A stretch of DNA of 64,000 nt from a virus, in the IMG/VR virus record IMGVR_UViG_3300021378_000021, positions 1-64,000 of that record. One strand, 5' to 3'. The notes under the pieces were generated by a model, which was not told the origin of the DNA, did no database searches, and saw only the letters and a list, made by a program, of their open reading frames with translations. This document shows positions 7,558-45,716 of the stretch, in pieces (within the stretch, counting starts at the first letter, position 1; the number at the start of each line of letters is the position of its first letter). Made by a program: the position numbers and the translations under genes.

Positions 7558-7586
7558 ATTATATCAAATATTTGCTCCACCGTCAA
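7558..7586 (-). promoter_or_regulatory. Sigma70-type promoter for the DUF3310-gp45-speD unit
   Basis: TTGACG (7586-7581), a 17-nt spacer and a perfect TATAAT (7563-7558) on the minus strand. It overlaps the last codons of the CobS-like gene. The predicted start of transcription is at or next to the ATG at 7552. The box quality and ideal spacing make it one of the best promoters in the window, likely used by host RNA polymerase early in infection. Confidence 0.8.
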
Positions 7587-8667
7587 TCACATAAATTTTA
7601 TCACTTTCTGCAGGCATCACAAAGTCGGCATCCACTTTGTCATAGAGTTCCAAGAATGATTGCTTGGTCTCATCATCAAAACGACTCACACAAACTTGAA
7701 TTGCTTTTGCTTTATCTTTGAAGATGCTGAAAGCACGAATGATATGAACCAAACGACGGGTGCTGATGATTTCATCAATACCACCATCATAGAAAGTTTT
7801 GCGAATGATATCTGCCCAATCTACAAGACGTTTGCAGAAGTCAGTATCTTCGACTCCAAGATCCGAAGAAATACCCTCAAGAATTTTCTGTTCTGTTGCA
7901 GGAGTAGGATATGACTGCTCAAAGGTTACTGGGAAACGCTCAAGGAATGCTTCGTTGAGAACATTAGTGCCGATAAAACGACCATCTTCAGAACCTTTAC
8001 CTTTTGTGTTTGCAGTGGCAAATACATTGAAACCTTTTGTTGGTTTTACATACCTACCAATTTTTTTCAGGAACACACCCTTACCTTCAAGGATGGACTG
8101 GAGACAGAGGATTTTGTTAGAAGCAAGGTCAACTTCATCGAGTAGCAGGATTGCTCCTCTCTGGAGTGCTTCAGTGACAGGTCCGTTATGCCAAACAGTT
8201 GCCCCATCGACAAGACGGAAACCACCAATAAGATCGTCTTCATCAGTCTCAATAGTAATGTTTACACGAATCAGTTCACGTCCAAGTTGAGCACACGCTT
8301 GCTCCACAGATAACGTTTTACCATTACCCGAAAGACCCGTAATGAACGTTGGGTAAAAAAGACGGGACTGAATAATTTTTTTAAGATCACCAAAGTTACC
8401 AAACTTGACGAAAGTATCATCTTTATCAGGAATCAAATTTTGCTCAATAGTAGGCATAGCAGGAGGTGCCTGATAAGTTTGCTCAAGTTTTTCTTGAATA
8501 GACAGGTTCCACTTACCACGACCAACTTTATAATCAGAAATTTTATTCGTAACTGTCTGATAGTTAGATCCATTCATTGCACACCAAGCACGAATATCAG
8601 CACCAGTTACGGACTCTCCATAAAGTTCCTGTAATGAAGTGACGATGTATTCAGCAGAAAGAGACAT
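7564..8667 (-). CDS. cobS: CobS-like / MoxR-type AAA+ ATPase
   Basis: The 367-residue protein has an N-terminal helical region (1-80), then an AAA+ core with Walker A GLSGNGKT at 111-118, the MoxR/CobS helix-2 insert region around ETDEDDLIGGFRL (140-152), Walker B AILLLDEVDLA at 172-182, and FATANTKGKG (sensor 1). Cyanophage copies are usually named cobS after the cobaltochelatase subunit. No other cobalamin gene is seen here. Two genes upstream is a protein with a VWA domain, the standard partner of MoxR-type ATPases. A remodelling role with that protein is therefore as plausible as cobalt insertion. A terminator and a TATAAT box lie just upstream. Confidence 0.85.
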   Translation of the reverse strand: MSLSAEYIVTSLQELYGESVTGADIRAWCAMNGSNYQTVTNKISDYKVGRGKWNLSIQEKLEQTYQAPPAMPTIEQNLIPDKDDTFVKFGNFGDLKKIIQSRLFYPTFITGLSGNGKTLSVEQACAQLGRELIRVNITIETDEDDLIGGFRLVDGATVWHNGPVTEALQRGAILLLDEVDLASNKILCLQSILEGKGVFLKKIGRYVKPTKGFNVFATANTKGKGSEDGRFIGTNVLNEAFLERFPVTFEQSYPTPATEQKILEGISSDLGVEDTDFCKRLVDWADIIRKTFYDGGIDEIISTRRLVHIIRAFSIFKDKAKAIQVCVSRFDDETKQSFLELYDKVDADFVMPAESDKIYVIDGGANI

Positions 8668-8697
8668 GATCTTGTTTTGTTGGTTTCAACTGAAGTT

Positions 8698-8703
8698 ATT
8701 ATA
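8698..8703 (-). promoter_or_regulatory. TATAAT -10 element upstream of the CobS-like gene
   Basis: A consensus TATAAT lies 31 nt before the ATG at 8667 and directly after a terminator T-run. No good -35 box is present at 16-18 nt. It resembles a middle-type or extended -10 promoter that re-starts transcription after the terminator. Confidence 0.5.
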
Positions 8704-8707
8704 CAAG

Positions 8708-8730
8708 AAAAAAGGGGTCTTGACGACCCC
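8708..8730 (-). terminator. Intrinsic terminator downstream of the acidic P/A-rich protein gene
   Basis: On the minus strand, GGGGTC, a 5-nt loop, GACCCC and then six Ts. The 6-bp GC-rich stem and immediate T-run make a good factor-independent terminator, 11 nt after the stop of the 109-residue gene. Confidence 0.88.
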
Positions 8731-8741
8731 CAGTGGACAGT

Positions 8742-9071
8742 TTAAGAATTGGTCAGATATTCTTTCAACTCTTTAACCATCTTTCTGTGAGAGTGTCTTT
8801 TATCCAACTCAATACCAACAGTTCTACCATACTCTTCAAGTTCATCCTTGCTCATTTCATCGATAGAAACATCACTCTCATATGTAAAAGTTTCGATAGA
8901 TTCTTCTTCAGATTCTTCTTCAGGTTCTTCTTCAGATTCTTCCACAACAATGGAATCAGGAGCAATTGCTTCTGCTGGTTCTGAAGGAACCGCAACTGGA
9001 GAAGGTTGTGCAGGTGCTGCTGGAGCTGGTGCCGGAGTTTTTCCTCCCAATAAATCTCCAAATCTAGACAT
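8742..9071 (-). CDS. Acidic, proline/alanine-rich protein with SAP-like C-terminus (109 aa)
   Basis: Three parts are visible: a short N-terminus (MSRFGDLLGGK), a low-complexity Pro/Ala linker (12-35) running into a strongly acidic Glu/Ser stretch (44-60), and a small C-terminal helical domain, MSKDELEEYGRTVGIELDKR then HSHRKMVKELKEYL (about 73-106). The last part has the helix-turn-helix-extended layout of SAP/LEM-like DNA-binding domains (K-x-E-L-x-x-x-G-I-x-L-D). It sits between the HExxH/VWA gene and the CobS-like gene, with its own terminator. An adaptor role joining the two neighbours is possible but inferred only from position. Confidence 0.65.
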   Translation of the reverse strand: MSRFGDLLGGKTPAPAPAAPAQPSPVAVPSEPAEAIAPDSIVVEESEEEPEEESEEESIETFTYESDVSIDEMSKDELEEYGRTVGIELDKRHSHRKMVKELKEYLTNS

Positions 9072-9095
9072 TCTTAATACCTATTACTATAGAAA

Positions 9096-9103
9096 TATTT
9101 ATC
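9096..9103 (-). promoter_or_regulatory. Late-promoter-like GATAAATA before the acidic protein gene
   Basis: One mismatch from TATAAATA, 25 nt before the ATG at 9071, the same spacing seen for the perfect copies. It overlaps the stop codon of the upstream gene. Confidence 0.4.
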
Positions 9104-11210
9104 AGGCAACAAGTCCCACAAACTCATTTAGAATTTTCTTATTCATTTTTTTATTCTTTAAACTCTTCATAAAAGATTTTTTGATTTGAGTTTTAGAAGC
9201 ATCTTCTGACACATCAAATTCAGATTCGCTTGCAAGAGTTGTTGCAGAAAGTGCAATATAAGAATGGTAACCAGAATTTTTGATAGCAAATGATCTCTGT
9301 TTTTTCCACTGGTTTTGAATCTTATTTCTCAATTCATGTTCGTTATAAGTGTAACGACTAATAAAACGGTGAGAATCACGAGACTCAAGAACACGAATAC
9401 CAATAAAATTAGTGTCCGCAAAATTATCTCTCAAATTTTGAATCAAAATATCAGTATAATCATCCCACATAGAATCCAAAGAATAAGTGTTTCCTGTTTT
9501 ACGATCACGAAGATAACAATTATGACCAATTCTTCCAAGTCCAATAAAAGGTTCAAACTCCCATGAACGTTGAATCTCACGATGATAAGTAAGTCCATAA
9601 CCCTCACCATCACTCAATACGACACACTGAACTTTTTGGACTTTAGTATTTTTCTTGAACTGTGGAATGATTTGATGAAGTGCAATCATCGTTTCATTCA
9701 AGGGAGTTCCGGACAATCCCATTCCAACAGGAATAGGATATCTTCCACCAAAAGTAATATATTGAGCAAGACGAAACATATTCTTCAATTGTTTTTCCAA
9801 AGTTTTAGAATTAACTTTGTGTGACAAAATGTTCATCAAAGAAAACTGTTCTCCAACCTGCATCAAACCATCTTTTTTCTCATATGGTCTTTTACGACAA
9901 AGTTGTTCTCCATCATCACTTACTAAGGGATACTCATTCGTGAATGCATATACCTCAAATGGAATAGAAACTTTCTTACAGAACCATACAAGATTAAATA
10001 ACTGCTTCATAGTATCCATCATTACATGGGTCATCGAACCAGACCAATCAAGAATAAAAATCAATCCATGATCTTTACCATCGGCAAGTGTGGTTACTTT
10101 CTTGAACAGGTCTTCGTTGTATTTGTAGGTGTGGAGTTTAGAGCAGTCCAAAACTCCAGTCCGACTAGTAGTAGCACGAGCATAGCTATTAGCAGATTTT
10201 CTACATTCGAATTCTTTGACAAGATAATTTACCTCTTTCTGTGCTGATTTTTTAAATTTCAGAAACTCACTATCAACATAATCAAACAGATAAGGATCGT
10301 GAGGATTGTCCCAGAGTTCATCACATCTCTCATGAATTTCTCCATTTGGTACAATAATATCATCAAGATTAACTTTAGGAAGTTCTACATAAACATTCTC
10401 AATTCCATCCGTTGATGCAAGTTTTTTGATTGCATCCTGTAATGAATCCATCGTATCTACTTTAGGTTCGGAATTAGTTTCTCCACCTTGAGGAATTTGT
10501 TGTTGATCCTCTGCTGTTCCACCATAAGATTCAGTATCATCAGAAACTTGTTGCTCTTGAGAATCATTATCTCCATCCTCTTGAGTTTGATCCGAATCTT
10601 GCTCACTATCAGAACTTTGTGATTCCAAAGAATCCATATCAGTCTTGGTTTCGGTATTCATCTGATCCTGACAATACTTATAGAGTGCCTGTGCCGCAAT
10701 CAGAACATCATCAAAATCTTCACAACCTTCGATCATGCGAACGATAGGCATCTCTACATATTCACCAAAAGGAATATCAACAAAGTTTCCAATCTTAAAG
10801 TGAAGATTTACACGGTCGGCAAGATTCATCTTACTTACATCTTCACACTCAACACCAAAGAAGTCCTCATCGGCAAGAACATTATATCCTTTATAGAAGG
10901 TCTTAGAGATGCCAGCATAACGACGCTTCATCATTTTCTCAATACGAACATCCTCCACCACATTCACAAACTGTGGAGGAATCTTATATTCTTTTATCCA
11001 ATCACGATCTGGTGTATAAAGTGCATGTCCCACTTCATGTGCCACCAACATATCATATATCTCATCACCTGCCTTATCCCAGTTCGGCAGTGTCAGCACA
11101 CGAGTATGAACATTGAAACATGCAGTCTCAACATTTTTGTTCTCTACCACAAGGTCTTCGGTGGCAAGAAGTTTAGCAAGTTGAGATTTGATTTCGTGCC
11201 TGACGGTCAT
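9102..11210 (-). CDS. Metallopeptidase-like (HEVGH) and von Willebrand A domain protein
   Basis: The 702-residue protein starts at the ATG at 11210 (MTVRHEIKSQLAKLLAT); a TTG-started extension of 10 residues to 11240 has no support. An N-terminal zinc-peptidase motif MLVAHEVGHALYTP (His58, Glu59, His62) is followed by NVVEDVRIEKMMKRR, a plausible third-ligand region. Residues about 200-260 are a Gln/Asp/Ser/Glu-rich linker. A C-terminal VWA domain has the MIDAS signature FILDWSGSM near residue 386. CobT of cobaltochelatase also carries a C-terminal VWA, but the HExxH part is not expected in it. With the CobS-like ATPase nearby, it forms a MoxR-VWA pair. Substrate and function are unknown. Confidence 0.85.
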   Translation of the reverse strand: MTVRHEIKSQLAKLLATEDLVVENKNVETACFNVHTRVLTLPNWDKAGDEIYDMLVAHEVGHALYTPDRDWIKEYKIPPQFVNVVEDVRIEKMMKRRYAGISKTFYKGYNVLADEDFFGVECEDVSKMNLADRVNLHFKIGNFVDIPFGEYVEMPIVRMIEGCEDFDDVLIAAQALYKYCQDQMNTETKTDMDSLESQSSDSEQDSDQTQEDGDNDSQEQQVSDDTESYGGTAEDQQQIPQGGETNSEPKVDTMDSLQDAIKKLASTDGIENVYVELPKVNLDDIIVPNGEIHERCDELWDNPHDPYLFDYVDSEFLKFKKSAQKEVNYLVKEFECRKSANSYARATTSRTGVLDCSKLHTYKYNEDLFKKVTTLADGKDHGLIFILDWSGSMTHVMMDTMKQLFNLVWFCKKVSIPFEVYAFTNEYPLVSDDGEQLCRKRPYEKKDGLMQVGEQFSLMNILSHKVNSKTLEKQLKNMFRLAQYITFGGRYPIPVGMGLSGTPLNETMIALHQIIPQFKKNTKVQKVQCVVLSDGEGYGLTYHREIQRSWEFEPFIGLGRIGHNCYLRDRKTGNTYSLDSMWDDYTDILIQNLRDNFADTNFIGIRVLESRDSHRFISRYTYNEHELRNKIQNQWKKQRSFAIKNSGYHSYIALSATTLASESEFDVSEDASKTQIKKSFMKSLKNKKMNKKILNEFVGLVA

Positions 11211-15633: not shown

Positions 15634-17096
15634 TAGTTCTTTAGCGGTATGTTTACAATATCATAATTAAAATTTTCTTCATTATAAACTTTAATTCTTT
15701 CGATTAGATGATTAAGTGTATAGTTCCTCCTGGATTTGTAGGATATGTCGTCAGCAATGTCATAGAGAGTTGCCTTGGTCTTGTTATTACCTTTCCTAAG
15801 CACCCTTCCAATAGACTGGAGATTCCGAATTCTAGATTTGGATGGAGAAGCAAAAATGACATTGTGGAGATTTTTAATATTAATTCCTGTACTGAATGTT
15901 CCGTATGATGCAACAATAATCGCATTATTTTCTTTTTCAGTAATCTCCCTTACTTGTTCTCGATCCTTTGTATCTACTCCACCATGGACAAAAAATACTT
16001 GTCTTTCATCAACCGTATTATTATTTATCATGTGATATAGTGGCTCACCATGACCTTCAACTCTTGCAAAAAGAATGAGAGTATTACCTTTAAGATCTAG
16101 TGCAAGATTTCTTATGAACTTATTTCTACGTTCATGATTGATAATATACTGAACTTCTTCTTCAAAGTTTTCAAACTTATGTGCTGGGTGCTTCAGTAGA
16201 AGTACATTGATATCCAGTTTAGCAACATGACCCTTCGACATTAACTCTTCGGTACGAATGATTTTATACGAAGCACCAAACAATCCCTCAAGAACCCATT
16301 TATGAGTTTGTGTTCCATCAAGTGTTCCGGTAAAACCAAAACGATATTTTGCATCCGCAAGTTTTGACATTATAGATATTAATGACTTTGATTTAAACTG
16401 GTGTGCTTCGTCTCCGATAACTACATTAAATCTAGAAAAGTATTTGCGGGGGAGTTTGTAAATAGACTGCCAGGTAGTAATAATAACTTGAGAATCCGTT
16501 TCTCTTTCCTTCCCCGCATAGATTTTGTGACAATATGAACCTACATCCCAACCATAGTCTGCAAAGTCTTTATACATCTGCTCTACTAGCGAAGTCGTCG
16601 GAACGACTATCAGAATATTTTGTTTCTTCTCAACGTAATATCTCACAAGAGAATATATCATCAGAGACTTTCCAGAAGCAGTTGGGGATATCAACAACTT
16701 TCTATTATGTTTTAAAGCGTCGTATACTCCCTCAACTTGGTAATCTCTCGGAGAATACTTGCAAATAGCATTCATATAATCTTTTACACCTTCCTTTGAG
16801 ATAAAGTCATTCGTCTCAAAAGGAAGACCATAATACTTATTATCTACAAACTCATAAGTATATCCATGGTCATCACAAAACTTTGTAACCTTATCCAACA
16901 ATCCAACGTAAATCTCTCCAGTTTGGGTATTAAATAATCTTATCTTTCCATCCCAGTATTTACTACGATATGAGGACATAAACTTTGCACCAGGAACCTC
17001 AAAGGTAAACTGGTCTGATAATTCATAGTATACATGAGGTTCTGCCTTAACCTGTAAATATACTTCATTCTTTTTTGATATAATCAAATGAGACAT
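15633..17096 (-). CDS. uvsW: UvsW superfamily 2 DNA helicase
   Basis: UvsW unwinds branched DNA and R-loops, turning off origin replication and helping recombination in T4. The 487-residue protein has an N-terminal DNA-binding region, then helicase motif I SPTASGKS (137-144), motif II DEAH (229-232), motif III RFGFTGTLDG (252-261), motif IV-V region (TLILFARVEG, ASYGTFSTGINIKN) and motif VI QSIGRVLRKG. T4 UvsW is 503 residues. The start at 17096 follows a CTAAATA element similar to the late motif. Its stop overlaps the Sm-like gene. Confidence 0.95.
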   Translation of the reverse strand: MSHLIISKKNEVYLQVKAEPHVYYELSDQFTFEVPGAKFMSSYRSKYWDGKIRLFNTQTGEIYVGLLDKVTKFCDDHGYTYEFVDNKYYGLPFETNDFISKEGVKDYMNAICKYSPRDYQVEGVYDALKHNRKLLISPTASGKSLMIYSLVRYYVEKKQNILIVVPTTSLVEQMYKDFADYGWDVGSYCHKIYAGKERETDSQVIITTWQSIYKLPRKYFSRFNVVIGDEAHQFKSKSLISIMSKLADAKYRFGFTGTLDGTQTHKWVLEGLFGASYKIIRTEELMSKGHVAKLDINVLLLKHPAHKFENFEEEVQYIINHERRNKFIRNLALDLKGNTLILFARVEGHGEPLYHMINNNTVDERQVFFVHGGVDTKDREQVREITEKENNAIIVASYGTFSTGINIKNLHNVIFASPSKSRIRNLQSIGRVLRKGNNKTKATLYDIADDISYKSRRNYTLNHLIERIKVYNEENFNYDIVNIPLKN

Positions 17097-17121
17097 AACT
17101 CATAGGTTCACCTATAAGTAT

Positions 17122-17304
17122 TTAGTTCATGTTGTCAAACTGATGCTCTAAAATAAGTCTATAAAAATTATCTCTCATCGCAATCAGGTTCTCCTGTTCT
17201 TCTGGTTCTCCTCCAGACCATTTTTGTACTGCTTGACTAAGTCCTGTGTGAATTAACCTAATTCCTCTAATATTTAATTCGATAGAGTAATATTCATCGT
17301 CCAT
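17122..17304 (-). CDS. Small conserved protein (60 aa) between uvsY and uvsW
   Basis: The sequence MDDEYYSIELNIRGIRLIHT runs into a helical C-terminus (ENLIAMRDNFYRLILEHQFD). Position matches the small uvsY.-1/-2 genes of T4, but I do not see enough similarity to call them. The ATG overlaps the uvsY stop. The function is unknown. Confidence 0.65.
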   Translation of the reverse strand: MDDEYYSIELNIRGIRLIHTGLSQAVQKWSGGEPEEQENLIAMRDNFYRLILEHQFDNMN

Positions 17305-17735
17305 TAGTTAAAACCTGCTTGAAATTTGTGCCAGTCGATTGAGTTTTTAATTTGGAAAGTTCTATTCGAAACTGTCTTAATAATTTCCTCCAAGAACTTG
17401 AGCATCACATCATAATAACGAACTTTGAGGTCAATAGTATTTAACTTCTCATCAGCATCCATATACCTCTGTAGTGCTTCTTTATCTCTAACCTTATAGG
17501 GAAATGGTTCTTCGGCATAAACCTCTGCTGTTGCCTTTCCTGTGTAGTAGTTGTATCTTTCTAACTTTACACGATTATAAGTTCCTCTTGCCTTCTCTCT
17601 CAAAAGAGTAATGGTATTATATAAGGTATAATATTTTGAATGGAGTTGTGGAATTTTTAATGATTCATCATGTAGGTTATCAGGATCGATTTGAGAATCT
17701 TTTTCCCACATCTCCTGAATTTGATCAAGGTTCAT
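17304..17735 (-). CDS. uvsY: UvsY recombination mediator
   Basis: UvsY helps load UvsX recombinase onto gp32-coated single-stranded DNA. The 143-residue protein has the N-terminal helical start MNLDQIQEMWEKDSQIDPDN followed by PQLHSKYYTLYNTI and an all-helical remainder. T4 UvsY is 137 residues and begins similarly (LEDLQEELKKDVFIDSTKLQ, then a KYLKFY-like block), so it is full length. It lies between a virion gene and uvsW, and overlaps both neighbours by 1-4 nt. Confidence 0.9.
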   Translation of the reverse strand: MNLDQIQEMWEKDSQIDPDNLHDESLKIPQLHSKYYTLYNTITLLREKARGTYNRVKLERYNYYTGKATAEVYAEEPFPYKVRDKEALQRYMDADEKLNTIDLKVRYYDVMLKFLEEIIKTVSNRTFQIKNSIDWHKFQAGFN

Positions 17736-18280
17736 AGAGGTGTTCTGTTATCAGCAGATAATACATTATACACAGTATACTTGAAAGTGACCTCTGCTGT
17801 AAAGTAGTTGATGTCCGTATCACTTGCTTCAAATTCTAAAGAGGTCAAATAAACTGGAAATAAATCTCTAAATTTTACAATAGCAACATCTCTAAAGTTG
17901 CTATTTAAAATATGAAGACTTCCGTCACTAAACTGTTCTTTTAAATCTCTTACTCCATCAGCATTTGTTGTTAAATCTTTAAACTCTTGTGCTGTCTCTG
18001 GAAAACCTAAACCTGTCATCCAATTATGAATTGCCATATAGTTGACCATATTTTCATCAACTAAAAATCTTAAAGAAAAATCTCCATAAGTAAGTTTTTC
18101 TCCAGGAACATCAATATCCTTAAGATAAGTCGGTTGAACTGCTGTTCCTAGACTTATATTGGGAATACTGGCAGAGTTTGAAAAAAAATCAACCTTTGGT
18201 TCTTTTGCTAATGTGAATTTAAAACCAACAGGTGATAAAAAATTTCTATTTCCTATCTGCTTACCAAATGCCGTCGCCAT
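17732..18280 (-). CDS. Tail-tube-like virion protein (gp19 fold; candidate gp3)
   Basis: The 182-residue protein has the gp19-like layout: FTLAKEPKVDFFSNSASIPN, then DVPGEKLTYGDFSLRFLVDE, NYMAIHNWMTGLGFPET and, near the C-terminus, FRDLFPVYLTSLEFEASDTD followed by INYFTAEVTFKYTVYNVL. That pattern also occurs in the gene 19 product (FRGRILKIAGDRTFETWTI, KDVFPTNISTIDLSYET, FTVEMQVHYWE). In cyanophages the gene between 23 and uvsY is often listed as tail completion protein gp3; I cannot confirm identity from sequence. A role at the tail tube end or neck is likely. It lies downstream of the gp23 terminator. Confidence 0.65.
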   Translation of the reverse strand: MATAFGKQIGNRNFLSPVGFKFTLAKEPKVDFFSNSASIPNISLGTAVQPTYLKDIDVPGEKLTYGDFSLRFLVDENMVNYMAIHNWMTGLGFPETAQEFKDLTTNADGVRDLKEQFSDGSLHILNSNFRDVAIVKFRDLFPVYLTSLEFEASDTDINYFTAEVTFKYTVYNVLSADNRTPL

Positions 18281-18298
18281 TGTTTTATTTGTATTTAG

Positions 18299-18326
18299 AT
18301 AAAAAAAGAGACCCTTTCGGGTCTCT
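18299..18326 (-). terminator. Strong terminator after gene 23
   Basis: On the minus strand, an 8-bp stem AGAGACCC / GGGTCTCT with a GAAA tetraloop followed by a run of at least six Ts. It is 24 nt after the gp23 stop, and is the best terminator in the window, insulating the major capsid transcript. Confidence 0.93.
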
Positions 18327-18349
18327 GTGAGAAATATGTGAACCGTAGA

Positions 18350-19717
18350 TCACATGAGGTTTTGAACCTTGACTCTTCTGTAGTAACGGTTTGCGTTAGT
18401 CTGCAGTCTACCAGGATTGACAACAGGAGCAGCACCTTCTGCGAAGGGGTTAGCAACAATGCCGTAACGAGTCTTGAATCCGATTTTAGGCTGGAAGGTG
18501 TTCTCTCCAACTGCACGAACCATCTGAAGAGGAACGTAAGGGCAATAGAACAGACCTGCGTCATAAGGTGAAGAACCTTTATAACCAGCAACATAGTATT
18601 GTGCAGCTGCTTGGTTTGCAGAATAAGGATCGATATAGACCTTATACTTACCAGCAAGAACACCTGCGAAGGTGTTACCGGTGTCATCAACGTTCAGGTT
18701 TGCATTGAGTGCAGGGGTGTAATCAAGTACACCAGCCATGGTCAATGCGGAAGCAACGTCTGCGGAACACAGAATCATGTTGCCCTTTCCTCTACGAGTT
18801 CTTTGTGCGATTGCGTTCGCATCTCTCTCGATTTGGAAAATAAGACCTTTGAACTTCTCAACAGACCAACGTCCATTGGAGTCAACGTCAAGGTCAAAAG
18901 TACCGGCAGTAGCAACGTTTGCTTGAGCACCGGGTTCAGCAACCTTATAGATGGTTCTGATGACTTCTCTGTTGATTTCCGCAAGGATTTCAGTGGAGAG
19001 AATGTTGGCAAGTTCTGCCTCGGCATTCAATCCGTGGATTGCCTTGAGGTCTTGTGCCAGTTCCAAAGAATACTCTGCTTTCAGAGCACGGGACTTAGCA
19101 GTAACGGTGACTTTCTCAATCGAGAATGCCATCTCGTTGAAATCAACAGCACCACCGTCTCCAAGAGCTTCGGAGTTTGCTGTGGACATACCCTGACCGA
19201 CGTTATATCCGGTTTGGGTTTGAGCAGATGGGCTGAGAAGTCCTGGATTAGATCCACTCTGATTTCCAGTGGTTCCTAAACCAACGTTTGCTTCCTGACC
19301 AGCAACATAAGAGTTGGTGCCGTCAAAACCGAGTCCGCTGTTAGAGAATCCGGTATTTGCTTCGTCGAAGAGTGCTTCTGCACCACTTTGATTCGTGAAG
19401 CGTGAACGCATTGCGAAGATCAGTCCAGTAGGACCGTTCATCGGTTGAACGCCTGCAAGGTCATATGCGACCAGGTTAGGCATTGCGCGTCTGATCAATG
19501 AGATCAGAACGGGGTCGAAGTTAGCAACTCCGGAACCGGTTGAGTTTGTAGGTGCTTCTGAAAGAAACTCACGCTCCTCACTAAGCATTTTTTCTTGGTT
19601 CTCCAGAAGAACTGCGGTAACCATTCTCTTATGAGCATCATTGATGCCTCCGAGACCCTCGTGGTTGAGGATAGGTGCCCACTTCTCCTGAAGGTGTTCA
19701 GCATTGAAACCTTGCAT
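18350..19717 (-). CDS. 23: Major capsid protein gp23
   Basis: gp23 builds the hexamers of the prohead and is cleaved by gp21 protease. The 455-residue protein includes the conserved N-terminal block, then FLSEAPTNSTGSGVANFDPV (51-70), with a probable protease site after Glu54 (consensus L/I-x-E). The region PNLVAYDLAGVQPMNGPTGL and the FRTRYG-type C-terminus (here GFKTRYGIVANPF) are typical. T4 gp23 is 521 residues; cyanophage versions are shorter. An AAGGT ribosome site and TATAAATC late-type motif precede it and a strong terminator follows. Confidence 0.97.
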   Translation of the reverse strand: MQGFNAEHLQEKWAPILNHEGLGGINDAHKRMVTAVLLENQEKMLSEEREFLSEAPTNSTGSGVANFDPVLISLIRRAMPNLVAYDLAGVQPMNGPTGLIFAMRSRFTNQSGAEALFDEANTGFSNSGLGFDGTNSYVAGQEANVGLGTTGNQSGSNPGLLSPSAQTQTGYNVGQGMSTANSEALGDGGAVDFNEMAFSIEKVTVTAKSRALKAEYSLELAQDLKAIHGLNAEAELANILSTEILAEINREVIRTIYKVAEPGAQANVATAGTFDLDVDSNGRWSVEKFKGLIFQIERDANAIAQRTRRGKGNMILCSADVASALTMAGVLDYTPALNANLNVDDTGNTFAGVLAGKYKVYIDPYSANQAAAQYYVAGYKGSSPYDAGLFYCPYVPLQMVRAVGENTFQPKIGFKTRYGIVANPFAEGAAPVVNPGRLQTNANRYYRRVKVQNLM

Positions 19718-19747
19718 TTGAATTTACCTTGTTAAAAATTTTAGTTT

Positions 19748-19755
19748 GATTTATA
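19748..19755 (-). promoter_or_regulatory. Late-promoter-like TATAAATC before gene 23
   Basis: One mismatch from TATAAATA, 31 nt before the gp23 ATG, in the short non-coding gap after gene 22. The spacing matches that of other late motifs in the window. Confidence 0.6.
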
Positions 19756-19764
19756 ATTAAAAAA

Positions 19765-20889
19765 TCACTTTTGCGAAACTCTAGTCAGAGTATCGAGATA
19801 GGATTCCATTAGACCAGTAACTGGTTGTGCAATGGACTCTGAACTCTCGGAAATATTCTCTGAGTTGTCTCTTTGAGATCCGACATTTTCTGGGAAATAA
19901 GAATTTCTCAGGGTTGCCAGTTTCTCACGATAGTTGTCTTCACTATCAAACTCAACATTTTCTGCAAGAGAAGCGAGTTTATCCTTCTGCGAAAGTGCTA
20001 GACCTTCACAGACCTCGGAGAAGATTACATCAGCAACCGACTCAGCTAATCTTTGATTAAGAGCAATATTAGATTTAATTTGCTCGTTGAGTTTATCTTC
20101 CATTTCATCTAATTTCTCTACCATTGCGGTAGTTACATCATATTTCTCTTCAGGGATGTTTACATAATGATCTTCAAAAAGACTTCTCATTCCAGTGAGG
20201 AATGATTCGGTCATTTCTGCCTTGAGACCTTGCTCGATTGCGAGTTGATTTTCGGAAATCCACTCTTCGGCAACGTACTCAAGATATGCATCAACTCTAT
20301 CGGTCAGTTCTTCCTTAATAGCAGAAACTTCTTCTTCAAGAGTTGTTTCGTATTGTGCCTTCAGTTCTTCTTGAACTTCGGCAACTTTTGTTTTGATAGC
20401 AGTTTCGAAAATAGTACGTGCTTTTTCTTGGAAGTCTTCAGAAAGTTCTTCACCTTGAAGTAAGGCATCAACATCTTCTTCGACGTTATATTCTACTTCA
20501 AGTACTTCCTCTTCAGATACAACTTCTTCTTCAGAAGTTTCTTCTTCGGCAACTACTTCTTCGGCAGATGCAGTGGTCTCTTCTTCTTCGACTACTTCAC
20601 CTTCAACTTCCTCTTCTTCCTTCATACCAGTAGGCATGGGTTCAGCAGGTTTTGCGCCCCTGTTCACAATGTCTTTGACAGTTGCGATTTTGGGTTCTGC
20701 GAGTTTAGCAGAGTTGTCGTCTACTTTATAGTTTTCTGGAGTAGGACCACCGAGATCTTCGTAACTGCCAGTTTGACCAGGGGTCGAAACACCGGAAGCA
20801 TTACTTCCAGATTTTGGCATTACCTCAGATGCAGCAGCTCCTTTCGTTACTACGTTTTCCATTTCTTGTAAATTGCTACCAACGGACAT
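19765..20889 (-). CDS. 22: Prohead core scaffold protein gp22
   Basis: gp22 is the main internal scaffold, degraded to peptides by gp21 during maturation. The 374-residue protein is highly charged and helical. An acidic low-complexity stretch (about 95-135, rich in Glu and Val) is followed by a long predicted coiled coil with KARTIFETAIKTKVAEVQEE and a C-terminal segment containing ESVADVIFSEVCEGLALSQK near residue 285, which resembles the T4 gp22 C-terminal region. T4 gp22 is 269 residues, so this is longer by its N-terminal extension. It lies between 23 and 21 as in T4. Confidence 0.9.
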   Translation of the reverse strand: MSVGSNLQEMENVVTKGAAASEVMPKSGSNASGVSTPGQTGSYEDLGGPTPENYKVDDNSAKLAEPKIATVKDIVNRGAKPAEPMPTGMKEEEEVEGEVVEEEETTASAEEVVAEEETSEEEVVSEEEVLEVEYNVEEDVDALLQGEELSEDFQEKARTIFETAIKTKVAEVQEELKAQYETTLEEEVSAIKEELTDRVDAYLEYVAEEWISENQLAIEQGLKAEMTESFLTGMRSLFEDHYVNIPEEKYDVTTAMVEKLDEMEDKLNEQIKSNIALNQRLAESVADVIFSEVCEGLALSQKDKLASLAENVEFDSEDNYREKLATLRNSYFPENVGSQRDNSENISESSESIAQPVTGLMESYLDTLTRVSQK

Positions 20890-38163: not shown

Positions 38164-38367
38164 CTATTTACTCAAGAAATCTTTAAGTAAATTTTTTATT
38201 TCTTCAATATCTTTTTTCATATTATTTAACTCTTCTTTCTCAGAATTTTTTCGTTTCACTCTATTCATATATCTATCATAAGCAATATCGTCACAATTAA
38301 CAATTGCTCCAGTATCCTCATCTCTGTAAAGATGAGGATGATCTTTAACTCTTATTAAATTCTTCAT
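38164..38367 (-). CDS. Small coiled-coil protein (67 aa)
   Basis: Residues 1-35, MKNLIRVKDHPHLYRDEDTG then AIVNCDDIAYDRYMNRVKRK, form a short conserved N-terminal domain seen in several T4-like phages. Residues 40-67 (KEELNNMKKDIEEIKNLLKD) are a leucine-heptad coiled coil. Its start overlaps the stop of the 2450-residue gene by 4 nt. Its function is unknown; it could be a virion assembly cofactor. Confidence 0.75.
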   Translation of the reverse strand: MKNLIRVKDHPHLYRDEDTGAIVNCDDIAYDRYMNRVKRKNSEKEELNNMKKDIEEIKNLLKDFLSK

Positions 38368-41300
38368 GCTAATGCGATTGTTCGAAGGTCACTAATAATT
38401 GGTGCATTTGCCTGATCAGTTCCTGACATAATAATTTTAATTGAATATCCACTAAATTCTCCCAAATCATTAGCACTAAACTCATATTCTAAGAACTGGT
38501 TAGCAGAACTTGCAGGAACTTTAACATCAGATTTCCCGTTATTTAAAGATGGATCAACAACTCTAAATCCACCGTCAGAAGTTGCCTCAAGATTCTCATA
38601 TCCAGGGAACAATTCAAATTCTTGTTCAATTTCTGATGAATCATCTCTAACAAGACTATAAAGAACTCTAATGTCTGAAGATGCAGGTCTATATGCTCCA
38701 AGTATAACTTTTAAGGAAGATGCTGGTTTGGATAAATTGACAGTATCAGAAACATAGATTGCTGAGTGTGGATCATTTAAAATAGAATTTACTCTAGAAT
38801 CTGAAGCAAAATCGGTAACAGGTCTATTTAAATAATTTGATGCAAATTCAATAGTAGAATTTTCAAGATTTATAATTGGAGATAAGTTTTCATCTGTACT
38901 GTTTAGTGTAATTGCTGCAGTAAATGATCTTCTACCAGAAACATTATTGAATACTGGTTGTTGTAATTCATTTACTCTAGAACATACTATTCTGGTCGAT
39001 TTTAAATTATTGAATGAATTTAACTCTACAGGTTCTACTTCATTTAGAAGTTGGAAAGAAGTTTCAGTACCATCAATACTAGTTCCAGTTGTTGTTCTAA
39101 TTACGGCACTTACTGAGGTTGAATCTCCAGGTGCCTGAACAAAGAATCTTGGATTTAGTGAATTAAATTGGATATTCTCAGTTGCATAGACATCATTTCC
39201 ACCACCAACAAATTGTCTATTAAATGATAATTGTGGTAAAGTTGCAGTATCTGCAGATCTATTTACTCCATATGTAGCACTTCGATCTACTTCAACATAA
39301 TATCCATTAGAGTCGATTCCAGTATCAGAAATATCATAAATTACATTATTAATTCTTCTTAAAGATACTCCATTAAACTCATATTTTTGAACCTTAGAAT
39401 TAACTTCATGTGATTCAGTTTTTCCTTCAATACCTCTAACAAGAGTTCCTAACTCATTTGAAGATGCAGTTTCGTATGATATAACTTCATCTCCAATTTT
39501 TACATATCCTGGATTGGAATTGCTAACAGGAAGACCTTCAAAAGTTTCAAAGACAGAAGAATCTTCAACAAATATTGTATTTAATTCTGTTGATAATAAA
39601 CCAGCAGTAAGAATTGTTGGTGAAATATCAGATTCAACACCACTCAATTGCAATTTATTATTATTGGCATACATTCCATGATTAAAATGACTTACCTCTA
39701 AGTAATTGCCAGAATTTGTTCCTGTTCCTTCAGTTACACTTAAAATGGTGGTAGATGCCAGAGATACAATAGTTGTATCTGTATCATAATAACTTACTCC
39801 AATACCAGTTCGGAATGCTTTTGGTGAAGAATCGCCTTCACCTTGAACATTAGTCAGATAAAGTGTATCTCTTCCATTGATTGCATCAATACTAATTAAT
39901 GCACCTCTACCTGTTGTGTTACTAGTGATAGTCACTACATCACCAACTTCATATCCATTTCCATTAGCAGTTTTTGTAAGACCGGTGATTGCACCATTTC
40001 CATCTACACTATCGATAGTAAATTCTAACCCACTACCATTTCCGACAATATTAGTTGTTGGTCTGTTAGATTGAGTTGTATAATTTACACCACCATTAGT
40101 AGTTGTAATACCACTGACCGGTCCACCCGCATACTCAATATATCCATAACTATTTGGGATAGAACCAGCAATTTTTCTACCGGTAGTCAAAATACCAATT
40201 GTTGCTGCATCTGTGGATGTTGTAATTCCAAGATTGATAGTTTTTGGTAGACCAGTAACTGGATTTGCAAGTAAATTATTTACATATCCATTACTTTGAT
40301 CTAAAGGTGGATTTCCAAAATGAGCAATACCAGTATTTGCGGTGAATTTTGCTTTGTAAAGTTTAAATTTAAGATCTAATTCTTGTGTAGGAGTCCAAAT
40401 AGATCCATTTTGAGACTTAAACAAACTACCAAGTGCGAATTGCTTACTATAAATGACTGCTTCCGCATCAGGTAAAGATTGTGTATTAACAGTTCTCTCT
40501 CCCATTTTTGCAATCCAAACTTCATATTCATCTGAAGTAGGTGCAAGTAAAACTACAGCATATTCATTTCCTGGGGCAAGATATTTTGGTTCATCAAATG
40601 TAACTCTTGTTGCAATTTCTCCAGTTGCTGATGTTGTAATTTGATCTGGATATAATGTTTTAGATTCTCCAACCAGATTTAGAGTTGGAATACCAAGTTC
40701 TACTGTTCTTATTTGAACTTCAAGAGGTTCACTACCTGCTGGTTTGTTGGCAAAAAAGATATCCAATTCGGTAAGAACTACACCCTTATCATCACTACTA
40801 AATCCATTTAAATCTGGAGCATCAATATCTCTACCAACAACAAATGATTGCGCAAGAGGATCAGATCTTCTTGCTCTTACAACTTCACGTCTAGTTGTTG
40901 TTATAGTTGTAGTGCGTCTTACCGTAGTGTCAATAGTTGTCGTTACTGTGGTTTGTATTTGTCTTGTTAAGAGAGTTCCAACAGCACTATAAGATCCTTG
41001 ACCGGTAGAAATTAACTTACTTCCAGGTAATGGTTTGGTATTTGTAGAACTACTAGTCAATAAGTATGTCTTTTTACCAGTAAGAAGTCTTGGATTTGGT
41101 GCCGGATTTGTATGAGGATTCTTGATAAAGAATGAACCAAAAAGATCTCCATAATTATCAGTTATCAATCTTAAATCTTTTACATATGCAATTGCACCAC
41201 TCGTTTGTCCAACGATCTTTGCACCTTTGGTAACATACCCAAAAAATCTTCCTTGTGCTTCATCGGATAATGAATTTATATCAATATTTAATGTTTTGGA

Positions 41301-44300
41301 TGATTGACTATATGAAGTTGGTAGGTTTTCAGACCTTATATAAGGATTGATATTGTATGTTCTTGATGGAGAATTAAAAGATCCTTCTTTATGATTTGAT
41401 GTTGCAAGTCTAAACCGACCTGTTTCTTGTCCACCTTTATATACTTTTACTGTTTCACCTGACGTAAATGATCCTTGTAAAGTGCCAGATGTCTCTAAAG
41501 ATGTGCTATTAGCAATTTCTATGAGTTTCGGTATAAAATCTACATTACTATGATTATCTAAGAACTGATAATGTCTTGTTAAAGGTTTCAGTGATCTTCC
41601 GAAGAAAGAAACATTTCTAGATCTAATATACTGCTCATCACCACTTGAGATTAGAACATCTCTGGATCGTACATCAACTCTAGTTCTAGAAGTTGTTGAA
41701 GTCTGTGTTCTAGAGTTTGTACTACTTCTCCAGTCTGTTCGATCGACTCTGGCCCGATTTACGAACCCTCCACTCAAGTTAGGACCTACTCGTCCCCAAA
41801 CACGTTCCCGTGTAACCACTAATCCGTTTATTGCACCGGATAGTGGTATTGATACTGTATTTCTAACAGTGTTAGTAACAACATTAGTAGTTCTTCTTGT
41901 TATATTCTGTACAGAAGGGGGAATATAAATGGTTCTAATCCAAAAATCATTTTCTGGAGATAATTTTACATTTCCAACATACTCTATAACATGGAATGGA
42001 TTAACATTTTCAACACGAGTAGCAAGTGGTTGCTCCAACCAACCGATAGAATCATATTTTAGAGTAACAACATTTCCAGTTTTTTGAATATTTGGGTCTA
42101 ATAACTCAAAGTTAGTTGTCAAATCCAAATCTTCTTCGGAAATTTCTGAAGAAGGTAAAACTCTTTGTCTTAAAGAATTAGAAAGAAGTCTTGGTCTCAA
42201 TTGACCTTCACTAATATCTGCTGATGTTAGATTTTGATCACTGTTCGTTTGATCAACAAAATTATCTACAAAGAAACCAGACTTAAATCTATTATTACCA
42301 TCTTCATCTTCAATACGCAATGCTTCAGTACTCACCTCTAATAAACTTAAAGATGTGACTCTTTCCAAGTTTTCTATTCTATCTTCAAGTTGACCAATAT
42401 CCCTCATAGTATATCTTCTATTATCAACCAAATTAATAGAAACATCATCAGGATCATAAAGATATGGTGGAAGTATAATGGTTGCCAATTCCATCAAACT
42501 TTGATCATTACTTGGAGATGCTTTTGGATCTTTTGCCGAAACACCTTTACTAACGATAAGATTTTCAAATTTATCAAGATATAATTTATCAATTCTTGGG
42601 AGATAAAAATCAAACCCAATCAGTGAACTTTCTCCAGGTTTTAAGTTATAATCTGTAGTAAATGTTCTTGAACTAAAATCAAATGGTGAAGCAGTTGTTG
42701 AAGAATAATCAACAACTCTTGGTCTAAAGTCTAATGTATCAGAAGCTCTAACATCATTAGGTCCAATTGTAGGAATATCATTTAAAAATCTATCATCATC
42801 ATAACTTAAAACCGTAAATACATCTCCAGTGTCTGATGCAGGAACTATATAATGATCATAGACAACTAACAATCTCTTAGATGGTTCTGAATCTGTTGTT
42901 CTGATTAATCTTGAATAATCATAATATTCATTTTTTTGTCCACCATCAAGAACAAAATTGTCTGTTACGTTATTATACTTTCCTAATGTAATAGACTGAA
43001 CGGTAGAAATAATATTAGATTCTTTGAATGTTACAGTTTCTCCAGCAGTAAAAGTATTTTGATTTAGATAAACTACACCTAATTTATTGGCACCACCTGA
43101 TGATGGTGAGGAACTATTATTTGTTACGACTCTTCCAACTGCTCCACTCTCAGAACCAATGATATTTTCTCCAATAATAGCATCTGTTCCAACATTGGAT
43201 ATTGAAGAGAATTCAATTGCATCTAGTGTAGGATCTGCAGTATTCGTTGATTCATATACTACAAGAACTTTTGCTACATCAGGAACATTTAATGAAATTT
43301 GATCATCTTGAACTCTGAGTCCATAATATGGATTATATGTTAGTCCATCATTGATTGATATGCTAGATGCAGATCCAGATTGTGCTAATTTTGAAAGATT
43401 GACTACTTCTATTGCACTTCTAGTAAATTTTTTAATTTTACTTTGAATTCCATTCTTCTTCAGTGTTACATTTACAACTATATTTGATTGACCAGAGGTT
43501 AATCCTTCAATTTCGACTCCAGTTCCCCCTCCAGTAAGAGTAAACGCATCAGAAGTTACTGTTCCAATTCCACCCCCAGTATAATGAACGGAATATCTTT
43601 CCTGATCAAATGACTCATAAAATGCGCTTGTAATGCCGGTTGGTAGTCCAAATACTAAATCACCAGAACCATCAGTTGCTTCTCCAGTTATTTGATTTGT
43701 TATTAATAACTGAGAACCTGAGAGATCAACAGAGGAAATATTAGATTCTGGAAGATTTGCATAAAGAAATCCATTTTCACTATTTTTTATTTCTGCTACT
43801 CTAAGATTTGCCGTATAATTGCCATTAGAAATTGCGGTTCCAGTAAATACTCCACTAACACTAGAAATACTAGCAATAGTCAGTGATGCCAAATCTGAAG
43901 AAATTGCTGTAACTCTATTATACCTTAAACCACTTCCTTCTACGACACTAATTACATCATTCACTTTGACTCCAGAGAATAATTTTCCTGGACTTGTTAC
44001 GGTTGTTCCATTAACATTAACTTCCGAAATTCCATTAGAGAACTTTTTAGAACTTAATACTGCATCTGCATTAAAATCTGGAAATCCTGATACACTAGTT
44101 TTCTTAACAGATTTTAATTGATTAATATTATTTTGAACAAAACTCTTAATTGTTAATGCAGTCTCAACTCCGTTAACAATCAATTTTTCTCCAGTTACAA
44201 ACGTTCCCGAAGTTTGACTGAGATTTAACGGTCCAACACCACCAGCGACAACAAAACCACTCGCACCACTACTCTTTCCTTTTATAAAAGAAGATGTTGG

Positions 44301-45716
44301 AATTTGATCTGCGGTTACACCTACATTAAAGGTTATATTTGTATAAGTTTGAATATCATAAAGATATAAATCCCATTGAGTTGCTGCACCAGAATATGCA
44401 GCATCAGTCAAGTTAAAGGTATATACTCTCGCAGCACCAATTATCGACCCCCCTCCACCAAGTTGATCATATAAATCTAAAGTTTCATTTTCTTTTGGAG
44501 CACCACTGACATTATTAACTCTAAGTAAATGCCCCATCTCAAATGGGATATTAGCACTACTTATACTTTCAGTATCTCTTGGTTTTTCTACATCTATAGC
44601 AGTTTCTGTATCTAAAGTAACATCATAACCATCAACATATGCTCTTCCAGGACTTACCTGTAGACACATTAAATCATCCGATGGAGTATTTCCTTGTTCT
44701 GTAGTTTCTCCCTCTAAATATAAACCATCATTATCGATTTGATCATTTAACGAATTGAGTGCTTTAACACCAAACTCATCTACGGCATAATGACCAGATT
44801 CATCAAATGTTCTTTCTGCAATATAATCTCTTATTAAATTATAAACAGGTCTATTTTCGATTTTTTTAATTTTTCCTTCATCTACTCTCAATATCTCTAC
44901 AAAATCAGTATCTGTATTATTAGATATTTCTTTTTTTGTAAGTGTTAATGCTATCTTTAATCTGTCTGCTCCTGGTGCTGCAAAATTAGTGAAACCACTT
45001 GCATTATCATATAAAGACGAATCATCCTTTGCATTTACAATCGTTTCGGATATTTTTAATCCTACTCTATACGAAGGAGTATTGGTATAATAATCTAATA
45101 TAAGTGTTTGCTTAGAAACTTCTACAAATGTTCCTCTGATAAAATAAACACCATTATCAATAGATGCTGCTGAACCAACAAATGTTGCATCCTGAGAGAT
45201 TAATGATGCAAATGCGGTTCCTGCGGCAATTGTAGTATTACCATACGTGACATTTTCACTTGCAAATAACTGTTCTCCATCTTGAAATACATCTGTTTCT
45301 GCATTATCTCCAGACTCTCCATATTTAACATAAATTGTAAGATCACTTACTAGATCACTATCAGATGTAAGGGCAACTTCTTGAATAGATGCTGTTACAC
45401 CCGAAAGTTGTCCTGTAATTTTCTTTCCAATAAAATTCTTAATATAAACAGAGACATCTATACCTAAATTAACCGCATTTAATTTTACTGCAGAAAACTG
45501 ATTATCAAAAGTTACAGATCCTGGAAGAACCATAGATCCTTCTTTAAAAATATTGCCACCAAAAGACTCTACTTGGTTCTGTAAGATGGATTGAAGAGTT
45601 GTTAATTCTCTAGCCTGAACTGGATATCCTGGTTTAAATAAAACTTTATAAAAATTTTTATCCCCATCAAAATCATCATAATATGGGCTTATATTTAAGT
45701 CTGTTTTTTGTGCCAT
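38364..45716 (-). CDS. Giant virion protein with DUF4815-like N-terminus (2450 aa)
   Basis: The first 330 residues (MAQKTDLNISPYYDDFDGDK; FKPGYPVQARELTTLQSILQ; FFIRGTFVEVSKQ-type region) match the DUF4815 family, found in large baseplate or tail proteins of T4-like marine phages. The middle is Ser/Thr/Asn/Gly-rich with many beta segments; a region near residues 1270-1390 is rich in Arg and Thr (VRNTVSIPLSGAI; VRARRSDPLAQSFVVGRDID). The latter part has GxGY repeats (SGITTTNGGVNYTTQSN; LTKTANGNGYEVGDVVTI) and a VKIGDEVISYETASSNELGT plus LVRGIEGKTESHEVNSKVQK module. It likely belongs to the baseplate periphery or a large tail fibre. The location next to gp8 and gp7 supports this. Confidence 0.8.
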   Translation of the reverse strand: MAQKTDLNISPYYDDFDGDKNFYKVLFKPGYPVQARELTTLQSILQNQVESFGGNIFKEGSMVLPGSVTFDNQFSAVKLNAVNLGIDVSVYIKNFIGKKITGQLSGVTASIQEVALTSDSDLVSDLTIYVKYGESGDNAETDVFQDGEQLFASENVTYGNTTIAAGTAFASLISQDATFVGSAASIDNGVYFIRGTFVEVSKQTLILDYYTNTPSYRVGLKISETIVNAKDDSSLYDNASGFTNFAAPGADRLKIALTLTKKEISNNTDTDFVEILRVDEGKIKKIENRPVYNLIRDYIAERTFDESGHYAVDEFGVKALNSLNDQIDNDGLYLEGETTEQGNTPSDDLMCLQVSPGRAYVDGYDVTLDTETAIDVEKPRDTESISSANIPFEMGHLLRVNNVSGAPKENETLDLYDQLGGGGSIIGAARVYTFNLTDAAYSGAATQWDLYLYDIQTYTNITFNVGVTADQIPTSSFIKGKSSGASGFVVAGGVGPLNLSQTSGTFVTGEKLIVNGVETALTIKSFVQNNINQLKSVKKTSVSGFPDFNADAVLSSKKFSNGISEVNVNGTTVTSPGKLFSGVKVNDVISVVEGSGLRYNRVTAISSDLASLTIASISSVSGVFTGTAISNGNYTANLRVAEIKNSENGFLYANLPESNISSVDLSGSQLLITNQITGEATDGSGDLVFGLPTGITSAFYESFDQERYSVHYTGGGIGTVTSDAFTLTGGGTGVEIEGLTSGQSNIVVNVTLKKNGIQSKIKKFTRSAIEVVNLSKLAQSGSASSISINDGLTYNPYYGLRVQDDQISLNVPDVAKVLVVYESTNTADPTLDAIEFSSISNVGTDAIIGENIIGSESGAVGRVVTNNSSSPSSGGANKLGVVYLNQNTFTAGETVTFKESNIISTVQSITLGKYNNVTDNFVLDGGQKNEYYDYSRLIRTTDSEPSKRLLVVYDHYIVPASDTGDVFTVLSYDDDRFLNDIPTIGPNDVRASDTLDFRPRVVDYSSTTASPFDFSSRTFTTDYNLKPGESSLIGFDFYLPRIDKLYLDKFENLIVSKGVSAKDPKASPSNDQSLMELATIILPPYLYDPDDVSINLVDNRRYTMRDIGQLEDRIENLERVTSLSLLEVSTEALRIEDEDGNNRFKSGFFVDNFVDQTNSDQNLTSADISEGQLRPRLLSNSLRQRVLPSSEISEEDLDLTTNFELLDPNIQKTGNVVTLKYDSIGWLEQPLATRVENVNPFHVIEYVGNVKLSPENDFWIRTIYIPPSVQNITRRTTNVVTNTVRNTVSIPLSGAINGLVVTRERVWGRVGPNLSGGFVNRARVDRTDWRSSTNSRTQTSTTSRTRVDVRSRDVLISSGDEQYIRSRNVSFFGRSLKPLTRHYQFLDNHSNVDFIPKLIEIANSTSLETSGTLQGSFTSGETVKVYKGGQETGRFRLATSNHKEGSFNSPSRTYNINPYIRSENLPTSYSQSSKTLNIDINSLSDEAQGRFFGYVTKGAKIVGQTSGAIAYVKDLRLITDNYGDLFGSFFIKNPHTNPAPNPRLLTGKKTYLLTSSSTNTKPLPGSKLISTGQGSYSAVGTLLTRQIQTTVTTTIDTTVRRTTTITTTRREVVRARRSDPLAQSFVVGRDIDAPDLNGFSSDDKGVVLTELDIFFANKPAGSEPLEVQIRTVELGIPTLNLVGESKTLYPDQITTSATGEIATRVTFDEPKYLAPGNEYAVVLLAPTSDEYEVWIAKMGERTVNTQSLPDAEAVIYSKQFALGSLFKSQNGSIWTPTQELDLKFKLYKAKFTANTGIAHFGNPPLDQSNGYVNNLLANPVTGLPKTINLGITTSTDAATIGILTTGRKIAGSIPNSYGYIEYAGGPVSGITTTNGGVNYTTQSNRPTTNIVGNGSGLEFTIDSVDGNGAITGLTKTANGNGYEVGDVVTITSNTTGRGALISIDAINGRDTLYLTNVQGEGDSSPKAFRTGIGVSYYDTDTTIVSLASTTILSVTEGTGTNSGNYLEVSHFNHGMYANNNKLQLSGVESDISPTILTAGLLSTELNTIFVEDSSVFETFEGLPVSNSNPGYVKIGDEVISYETASSNELGTLVRGIEGKTESHEVNSKVQKYEFNGVSLRRINNVIYDISDTGIDSNGYYVEVDRSATYGVNRSADTATLPQLSFNRQFVGGGNDVYATENIQFNSLNPRFFVQAPGDSTSVSAVIRTTTGTSIDGTETSFQLLNEVEPVELNSFNNLKSTRIVCSRVNELQQPVFNNVSGRRSFTAAITLNSTDENLSPIINLENSTIEFASNYLNRPVTDFASDSRVNSILNDPHSAIYVSDTVNLSKPASSLKVILGAYRPASSDIRVLYSLVRDDSSEIEQEFELFPGYENLEATSDGGFRVVDPSLNNGKSDVKVPASSANQFLEYEFSANDLGEFSGYSIKIIMSGTDQANAPIISDLRTIALA

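Follow-up and report, generated by a model that had tools for sequence, protein, structure and literature searches.

Lists of cyanophage core genes include cobS as an 'auxiliary metabolic gene' for cobalamin, and marine metagenomics relies on it in this sense. Here we examine a CobS-like AAA+ ATPase gene and its neighbors in IMG/VR virus record IMGVR_UViG_3300021378_000021. The window, i.e. the whole stretch analysed, comprises positions 1 to 64,000 and covers most of this 67,004-base record, whose nearest annotated phage is Synechococcus phage S-SKS1 (91% protein identity). On the minus strand, the genes run in transcription order gp47, gp46, a 702-residue protein with a VWA domain, a 109-residue acidic protein and the 367-residue ATPase, followed by a small conserved protein, gp45, several small genes and gp44. 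A sequence-only reading had described the middle three, and its coordinates, lengths and motifs all proved correct, with the three open reading frames recovered on the minus strand (Table 1). It had also pointed out that no cobalamin genes accompany the pair, and the neighbors in the window are indeed replication and recombination genes, from gp46 (recombination nuclease) to gp45 (sliding clamp). The order gp46, VWA protein, ATPase, gp45 is kept in phages S-PM2, syn9 and P-RSM1.

A conserved AAA+/VWA gene pair

The proposed pairing of ATPase and VWA protein is borne out by its conservation. The pair is present in nearly all T4-like cyanophages: 463 public phage records hold the VWA protein and about 458 a closely related ATPase, with identical counts for both by label (365 Synechococcus, 61 'Cyanophage', 24 Prochlorococcus), many near-identical genomes being included. 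Among 117 independently fetched and scored loci with the VWA gene, 107 have an AAA gene adjacent to it, and several of the other 10 are incomplete contigs. The pair also occurs in Pelagibacter (SAR11) phages and in Ochrobactrum phage vB_OspM_OC, unrelated carriers have the module near replication-type genes (dnaE, DNA polymerase, helicase), and homologous modules are found on conjugative plasmids and integrative elements. In the GenBank record of S-SKS1 (HQ633071.1), both the VWA-peptidase gene and the CobS-like gene stand without annotation; the CobS match there is broken in two, possibly through a frameshift in the record.

The acidic protein had been read as a third member of the unit. It is found in S-SKS1-like relatives and is absent, replaced or unrelated at the locus in S-PM2, P-RSM1, syn9 and S-RIM14, so that the conserved unit consists of two genes; only the ATPase/VWA part of the suggested three-gene co-occurrence holds. 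The acidic protein is probably a clade-specific addition outside the core. Its C-terminal helical motif gives a weak PHROG match to T4 Inh-type head-protease inhibitors (E=8e-4), along with unrelated families, and we rejected a role as third subunit or protease inhibitor because, beyond one clade, the locus does not retain it. We likewise dismissed the AAA neighborhood of the Staphylococcus Twort-like phage A5W: neither of two neighbor proteins checked there is an HExxH/VWA protein, so not every distant ATPase match represents this module.

By its sequence matches, the ATPase belongs to the CbbQ/NorQ/CobS group. It scores above the cut-off with AAA_5 (65.9 bits) and CbbQ_C (24.8 bits), matches CobS (E=5e-22) and NorQ (E=7e-14) as well as CbbQ and Midasin in the PDB, and contains Walker A (residues 111–118), Walker B (173–180) and a conserved helix-2-insert-like GGFRLVDGAT segment (148–157). 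On the CobS model TIGR01650 it reaches 73.1 bits against a cut-off of 558.55 bits. Other phage and plasmid ATPases score 61–145 bits on this model, and two genuine CobS controls taken from beside genuine CobT score 558.0 and 622.3 bits. In an ATPase tree, the phage T4-like clade (99%) is separate from the CobS clade (100%; Shimodaira-Hasegawa-like approximate likelihood ratio test), with finer placement unsure because several branches are long. Doubt that cyanophage cobS is truly homologous to bacterial cobS was voiced in a 2016 review (PMC5083919), and a 2023 paper (PMC9964418) reported a MoxR ATPase grouping with other cyanophages.

The zinc site of the VWA protein

Scans of the whole 702-residue protein with Pfam, NCBIfam and PADLOC returned nothing useful, and its relationships became visible only with family profiles. 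Since about 3% of composition shuffles of such a protein contain an HExxH motif, the HEVGH motif of a single sequence proves little and the weight rests on conservation. Across 47 aligned relatives from phages and mobile elements, down to 13% identity, residues H58, E59, H62, N83, E86, D87, R89, I90 and G100 are invariant, as are D388, S390, S392, T502 and D534 of the metal ion-dependent adhesion site (MIDAS) in the VWA domain. Among 72 close relatives, the codons at H58, E59, H62, N83, E86, D87 and R89 vary synonymously with zero amino-acid change, E59 being kept in 72 of 72. The ratio of nonsynonymous to synonymous substitution rates (dN/dS) of the N-terminal domain is 0.05–0.15, at or near the bottom among the domains; the linker has the highest value of any segment in most pairs, reaching 0.78. 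These data uphold the earlier assignment of an intact metallopeptidase-type site. The search pattern used for cellular relatives contained the ED-x-RI motif, so conservation of this motif among them is partly by selection; this bias affects neither the 72-sequence set, found with other patterns, nor the HExxH motif itself.

In the AlphaFold model, HExxH sits in one helix and the ED pair in the helix that follows. The zinc site is also kept in other phages and mobile elements: as HEVGH in SSU5-type phage-plasmids and Rhizobium phage B1VFA, HECYH in ICP2, HETLH in a Microcystis phage and HENGH in an IncC-like plasmid.

Table 1. Features of the pair and the adjoining sequence, in window coordinates (pLDDT, predicted local distance difference test; pTM, predicted template modeling score)
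Feature	Coordinates	Strand	Basis or detail
CobS/NorQ/CbbQ-type AAA+ ATPase, 367 residues	7564..8667	-	phrog_249 'porphyrin biosynthesis', E=2.7e-137
Terminator-like hairpin in the gap between acidic protein and ATPase genes	8713..8731	-	3 found in this class vs 2.4 expected, not above chance
Acidic protein, 109 residues, C-terminal MSKDELEEYGRTVGIELDKRHS helical motif (SAP/HeH-like)	8742..9071	-	28 D/E vs 10 K/R
VWA protein, 702 residues, N-terminal zincin-like domain	9102..11210	-	phrog_459 'peptidase', PHROG E=6.5e-259
VWA domain, about residues 376-610	9381..10085	-	MIDAS D388-x-S390-x-S392, T502, D534; DWSGSM at 388-393
Pre-VWA segment, residues 311-375	10086..10280	-	invariant G352 within TGxLDxxKL
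Acidic low-complexity linker, residues 191-270, fast evolving	10401..10640	-	pLDDT <50 at 195-246
N-terminal zincin-like domain, residues 1-190	10641..11210	-	AlphaFold pLDDT 89.7, pTM 0.83
N-V-V-E-D-V-R-I-E, residues 83-91	10938..10964	-	E86/D87 candidate third zinc ligand
HEVGH predicted zinc-binding motif, residues 58-62	11025..11039	-	sequence conservation

Relation to CobT and the cobalamin reading

The peptidase motif had been taken to set the VWA protein apart from CobT, and a whole-length match to CobT had been named beforehand as evidence to the contrary. Such a match is what we found: at the level of sequence profiles, the VWA protein is a full-length CobT homologue, so the contrast with CobT needs correcting. 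A phage family profile that includes plasmid-type members matches solved CobT with E=4.7e-17 over positions 77–549. The relatives on plasmids and integrative elements align in hhalign with genuine CobT (E=3e-40, 555 columns) and with the phage family (E=3e-38), and the direct comparison of phage family and CobT gives a probability of 87 over 529 columns. Pfam CobT families also match a protein of an SSU5-type phage-plasmid in which HEVGH is preserved (CobT_C, 334 bits).

What sets the two apart, judging from the alignments, are the zinc ligands, lost in CobT and kept in the phage and mobile-element proteins. Of 32 alphaproteobacterial CobT proteins, 31 have a residue at the position of the first zinc histidine, and in all 31 it is Ala, Ser, Gly or Met; the glutamate position is mostly hydrophobic, Arg or Lys almost always stands in place of the second histidine, and all 32 keep the MIDAS. 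HExxH is also absent from the first 200 residues of 15 more divergent CobT proteins, a few of whose frames are truncated at the N-terminus. In a tree of VWA proteins, CobT forms one clade (100%) beside SSU5-type phage-plasmid and Rhizobium-phage proteins with HEVGH, a placement with support of 85 under an arbitrary root. The simplest history suggested by these sequences is a single loss of the peptidase site en route to CobT, root and sampling falling short of proof. Genuine CobT would then be a related subunit that retained the AAA-coupling architecture without the peptidase site. That the CobS/CobT motor of aerobic B12 synthesis descends from an AAA+-coupled metallopeptidase module of phages and plasmids, with CobT as a domesticated pseudo-peptidase, is a tentative proposal that we think somewhat less probable than its opposite; if true, it would explain where the CobT subunit of cobaltochelatase came from.

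Homology to CobT over the full length, along with the similarity of the ATPase to CobS, is what would be expected if the pair stood in for CobS and CobT, used the CobN of the host and raised the cobalamin supply of the phage. Liu et al. 2021 (PMC8651126) took the cyanophage 'peptidase' for a mistaken annotation of CobT and proposed a viral CobST that uses host CobN. A partner could exist in the usual host, since two Synechococcus metagenome-assembled genomes (MAGs) hold PF02514 (CobN/ChlH) proteins and no CobT. Several observations nevertheless oppose such a role: the zinc site that genuine CobT has lost is kept under strong selection in the viral protein, and the ATPase sits in a clade apart from CobS and far under the CobS cut-off. 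CobN is missing from this record, a 67-kb fragment, and just 2 of 50,697 phage records encode it, both without a cyanophage label. No CobN-family match was found in 8 of 15 genomes with an HExxH-VWA gene, several named isolates among them. SAR11 phages, moreover, carry the pair, and SAR11 is not known for de novo B12 synthesis. B12 chelation by the phage pair is on this evidence unlikely, and we regard the stand-in for CobS and CobT as the most improbable of the explanations weighed here. In a separate observation, the record of Pseudomonas phage Y13 (OQ572414.1) encodes at 16274–19957 a near-full-length CobN homologue (48% identity), which is unusual for a phage record and possibly host DNA.

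A predicted remodelling peptidase and its relatives

We put a probability of roughly 60% on the pair being a MoxR/VWA-type remodelling machine whose attached zinc peptidase is live and directed at either a host protein or an early or middle phage protein, as judged from conservation, homology and gene context. The sequence-only reading had proposed a protein-remodelling or proteolytic machine in which the acidic protein took part; the machine is better supported than a chelatase, and the acidic protein is no conserved part of it. In NorQD (PMC13036017), a finger of the VWA protein inserts into the pore of the ATPase and its C-terminus holds on to the ring, and rotation powered by ATP extends the linker that leads to the N-terminal domain; the finger, residues 403–448, lies at the start of the NorD VWA region. 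By analogy, we infer that the two phage proteins form a complex in which the VWA part would sit docked on the ATPase hexamer, its MIDAS metal holding a target. The long acidic linker would come under strain from ATP-driven twisting, opening the target, which would then reach the N-terminal gluzincin-like domain and undergo limited cleavage. Judged by position, the pre-VWA segment with G352 may correspond to the NorD pore finger. The favored target is a host protein or an early or middle phage protein, because the genes lie between gp46 and gp45 and because conjugative plasmids and integrative elements, which form no virions, carry the module too. The cyanophage transcriptome literature that we checked for expression timing names neither gene in the main text.

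A number of points weigh against this proposal. The top PDB fold matches of the N-terminal model are the minigluzincins selecase, jannalysin and abylysin, with ArdC, BlaR1 and PprI/IrrE also found, and most of the top 15 are zinc peptidases; the best E-value is 0.046, short of E<0.001 and not significant alone, so the fold match supports a zincin without proving it. The HExxH motif itself contributes to the match because Foldseek also uses sequence. In the CobT-like protein of Vibrio phage JSF27 (ICP2-like), HECYH is present and VDHNIE replaces ED-x-RIE, so the third ligand may differ in proteins of this type. Three near-identical copies from proteobacterial MAGs carry HEGVGH, a one-residue insertion, with ED-x-RIE intact. 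The correspondences of finger and helix-2 insert to NorQD are positional and partial, and the activity, complex and substrate of the phage pair are predictions from sequence. Where the function of MoxR/VWA relatives is known, it is mostly metal insertion or the remodelling of complexes, with no cleavage, and the HExxH site could hold metal for another purpose.

In another explanation, the pair is a metal-insertion maturase without proteolysis, the HExxH site binding a metal and delivering it to a host or phage enzyme while the AAA+/VWA motor opens the target like NorQD. NorQD (PMC13036017), CobNST, CoxDE and ChlID all insert metals, and the nearest solved fold for the VWA domain is the NorD VWA in NorQD complexes (E=5.7e-6). 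CobT, however, works without the HExxH site, and the conserved catalytic E59 is required for peptide hydrolysis and less obviously for holding a metal, making such a maturase improbable to us. Much the same holds for a virion-assembly chaperone that folds and cuts structural proteins during maturation, which we consider a shade less probable still. Iyer et al. 2021 (PMC7824862) described a MoxR-vWA pair with an N-terminal metallopeptidase, the architecture seen here, in group 2.2 jumbo phages and proposed virion assembly, and tail development of an archaeal virus needs a MoxR-vWA pair according to work as cited within that paper. Against a chaperone of this kind, conjugative plasmids and integrative elements produce no virions yet carry homologous modules, and the phage genes lie with gp46, gp45 and gp44, not among structural genes. 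Sullivan et al. 2010 named T4-GC 15 and 190 as the cyanophage core proteins found in virions, and if the numbering is shared, the S-PM2 peptidase (GC 146) and CobS (GC 150) are neither of them.

The idea of a remodelling peptidase is not new, the same architecture having been proposed by Iyer et al. 2021, and the published 'mistaken CobT' and 'MoxR-vWA-metallopeptidase' readings are both partly right. Our contribution is the combination of full-length CobT homology with a zinc site kept in the sampled mobile elements and lost in CobT, which separates the two. A single point mutation at E59 could tell these conflicting annotations apart. If the pair is a protein-remodelling peptidase, the ecological reading as a cobalamin gene is wrong for hundreds of genomes.

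Promoter and terminator scans gave numbers near chance expectation. Elsewhere in the window, two giant open reading frames on the minus strand, at 38364–45716 (2450 codons) and 47279–58867 (3862 codons), are presumably virion genes.

Compared with known systems, the pair resembles NorQ/NorD in joining an AAA+ protein to a VWA partner built of N-terminal domain, linker and C-terminal VWA; NorQ/NorD inserts iron into nitric oxide reductase, and the literature surveyed reports no peptidase function for it. The AAA-DUF3150-VWA triads of IncC-like and Pseudomonas plasmids and integrative elements share a VWA protein with HExxH and ED-x-RIE and a MoxR-type ATPase. They differ in gene order and in an interposed DUF3150 gene, which has no counterpart between the phage genes. 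HExxH domain, acidic linker and VWA also recur in the putative metallopeptidase-VWA proteins of DUF2201/COG3864. We rejected these as a parent family at hhalign probabilities of only 5.6% (phage) and 8.4% (integrative conjugative element), and the likeness in architecture is likely convergent; the comparison serves as a control that hhalign does not score any HExxH-plus-VWA protein as related. With the group 2.2 jumbo-phage pair (ASV44728/ASV44729), compared by description, ours shares domain architecture and pairing, although that proposal concerned other phages and virion assembly. CobS/CobT has in common with it the whole length of CobT and a related ATPase, and differs in the zinc ligands that CobT lacks, in the separate CobS clade and in the CobN that the phage record does not hold. 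Closest of all are phrog_459 and phrog_249 of T4-like cyanophages and pelagiphages, which are the same genes in the same place between gp46 and gp45; they are annotated apart, as a peptidase and a B12 gene, and most of the literature surveyed does not treat them as one machine.

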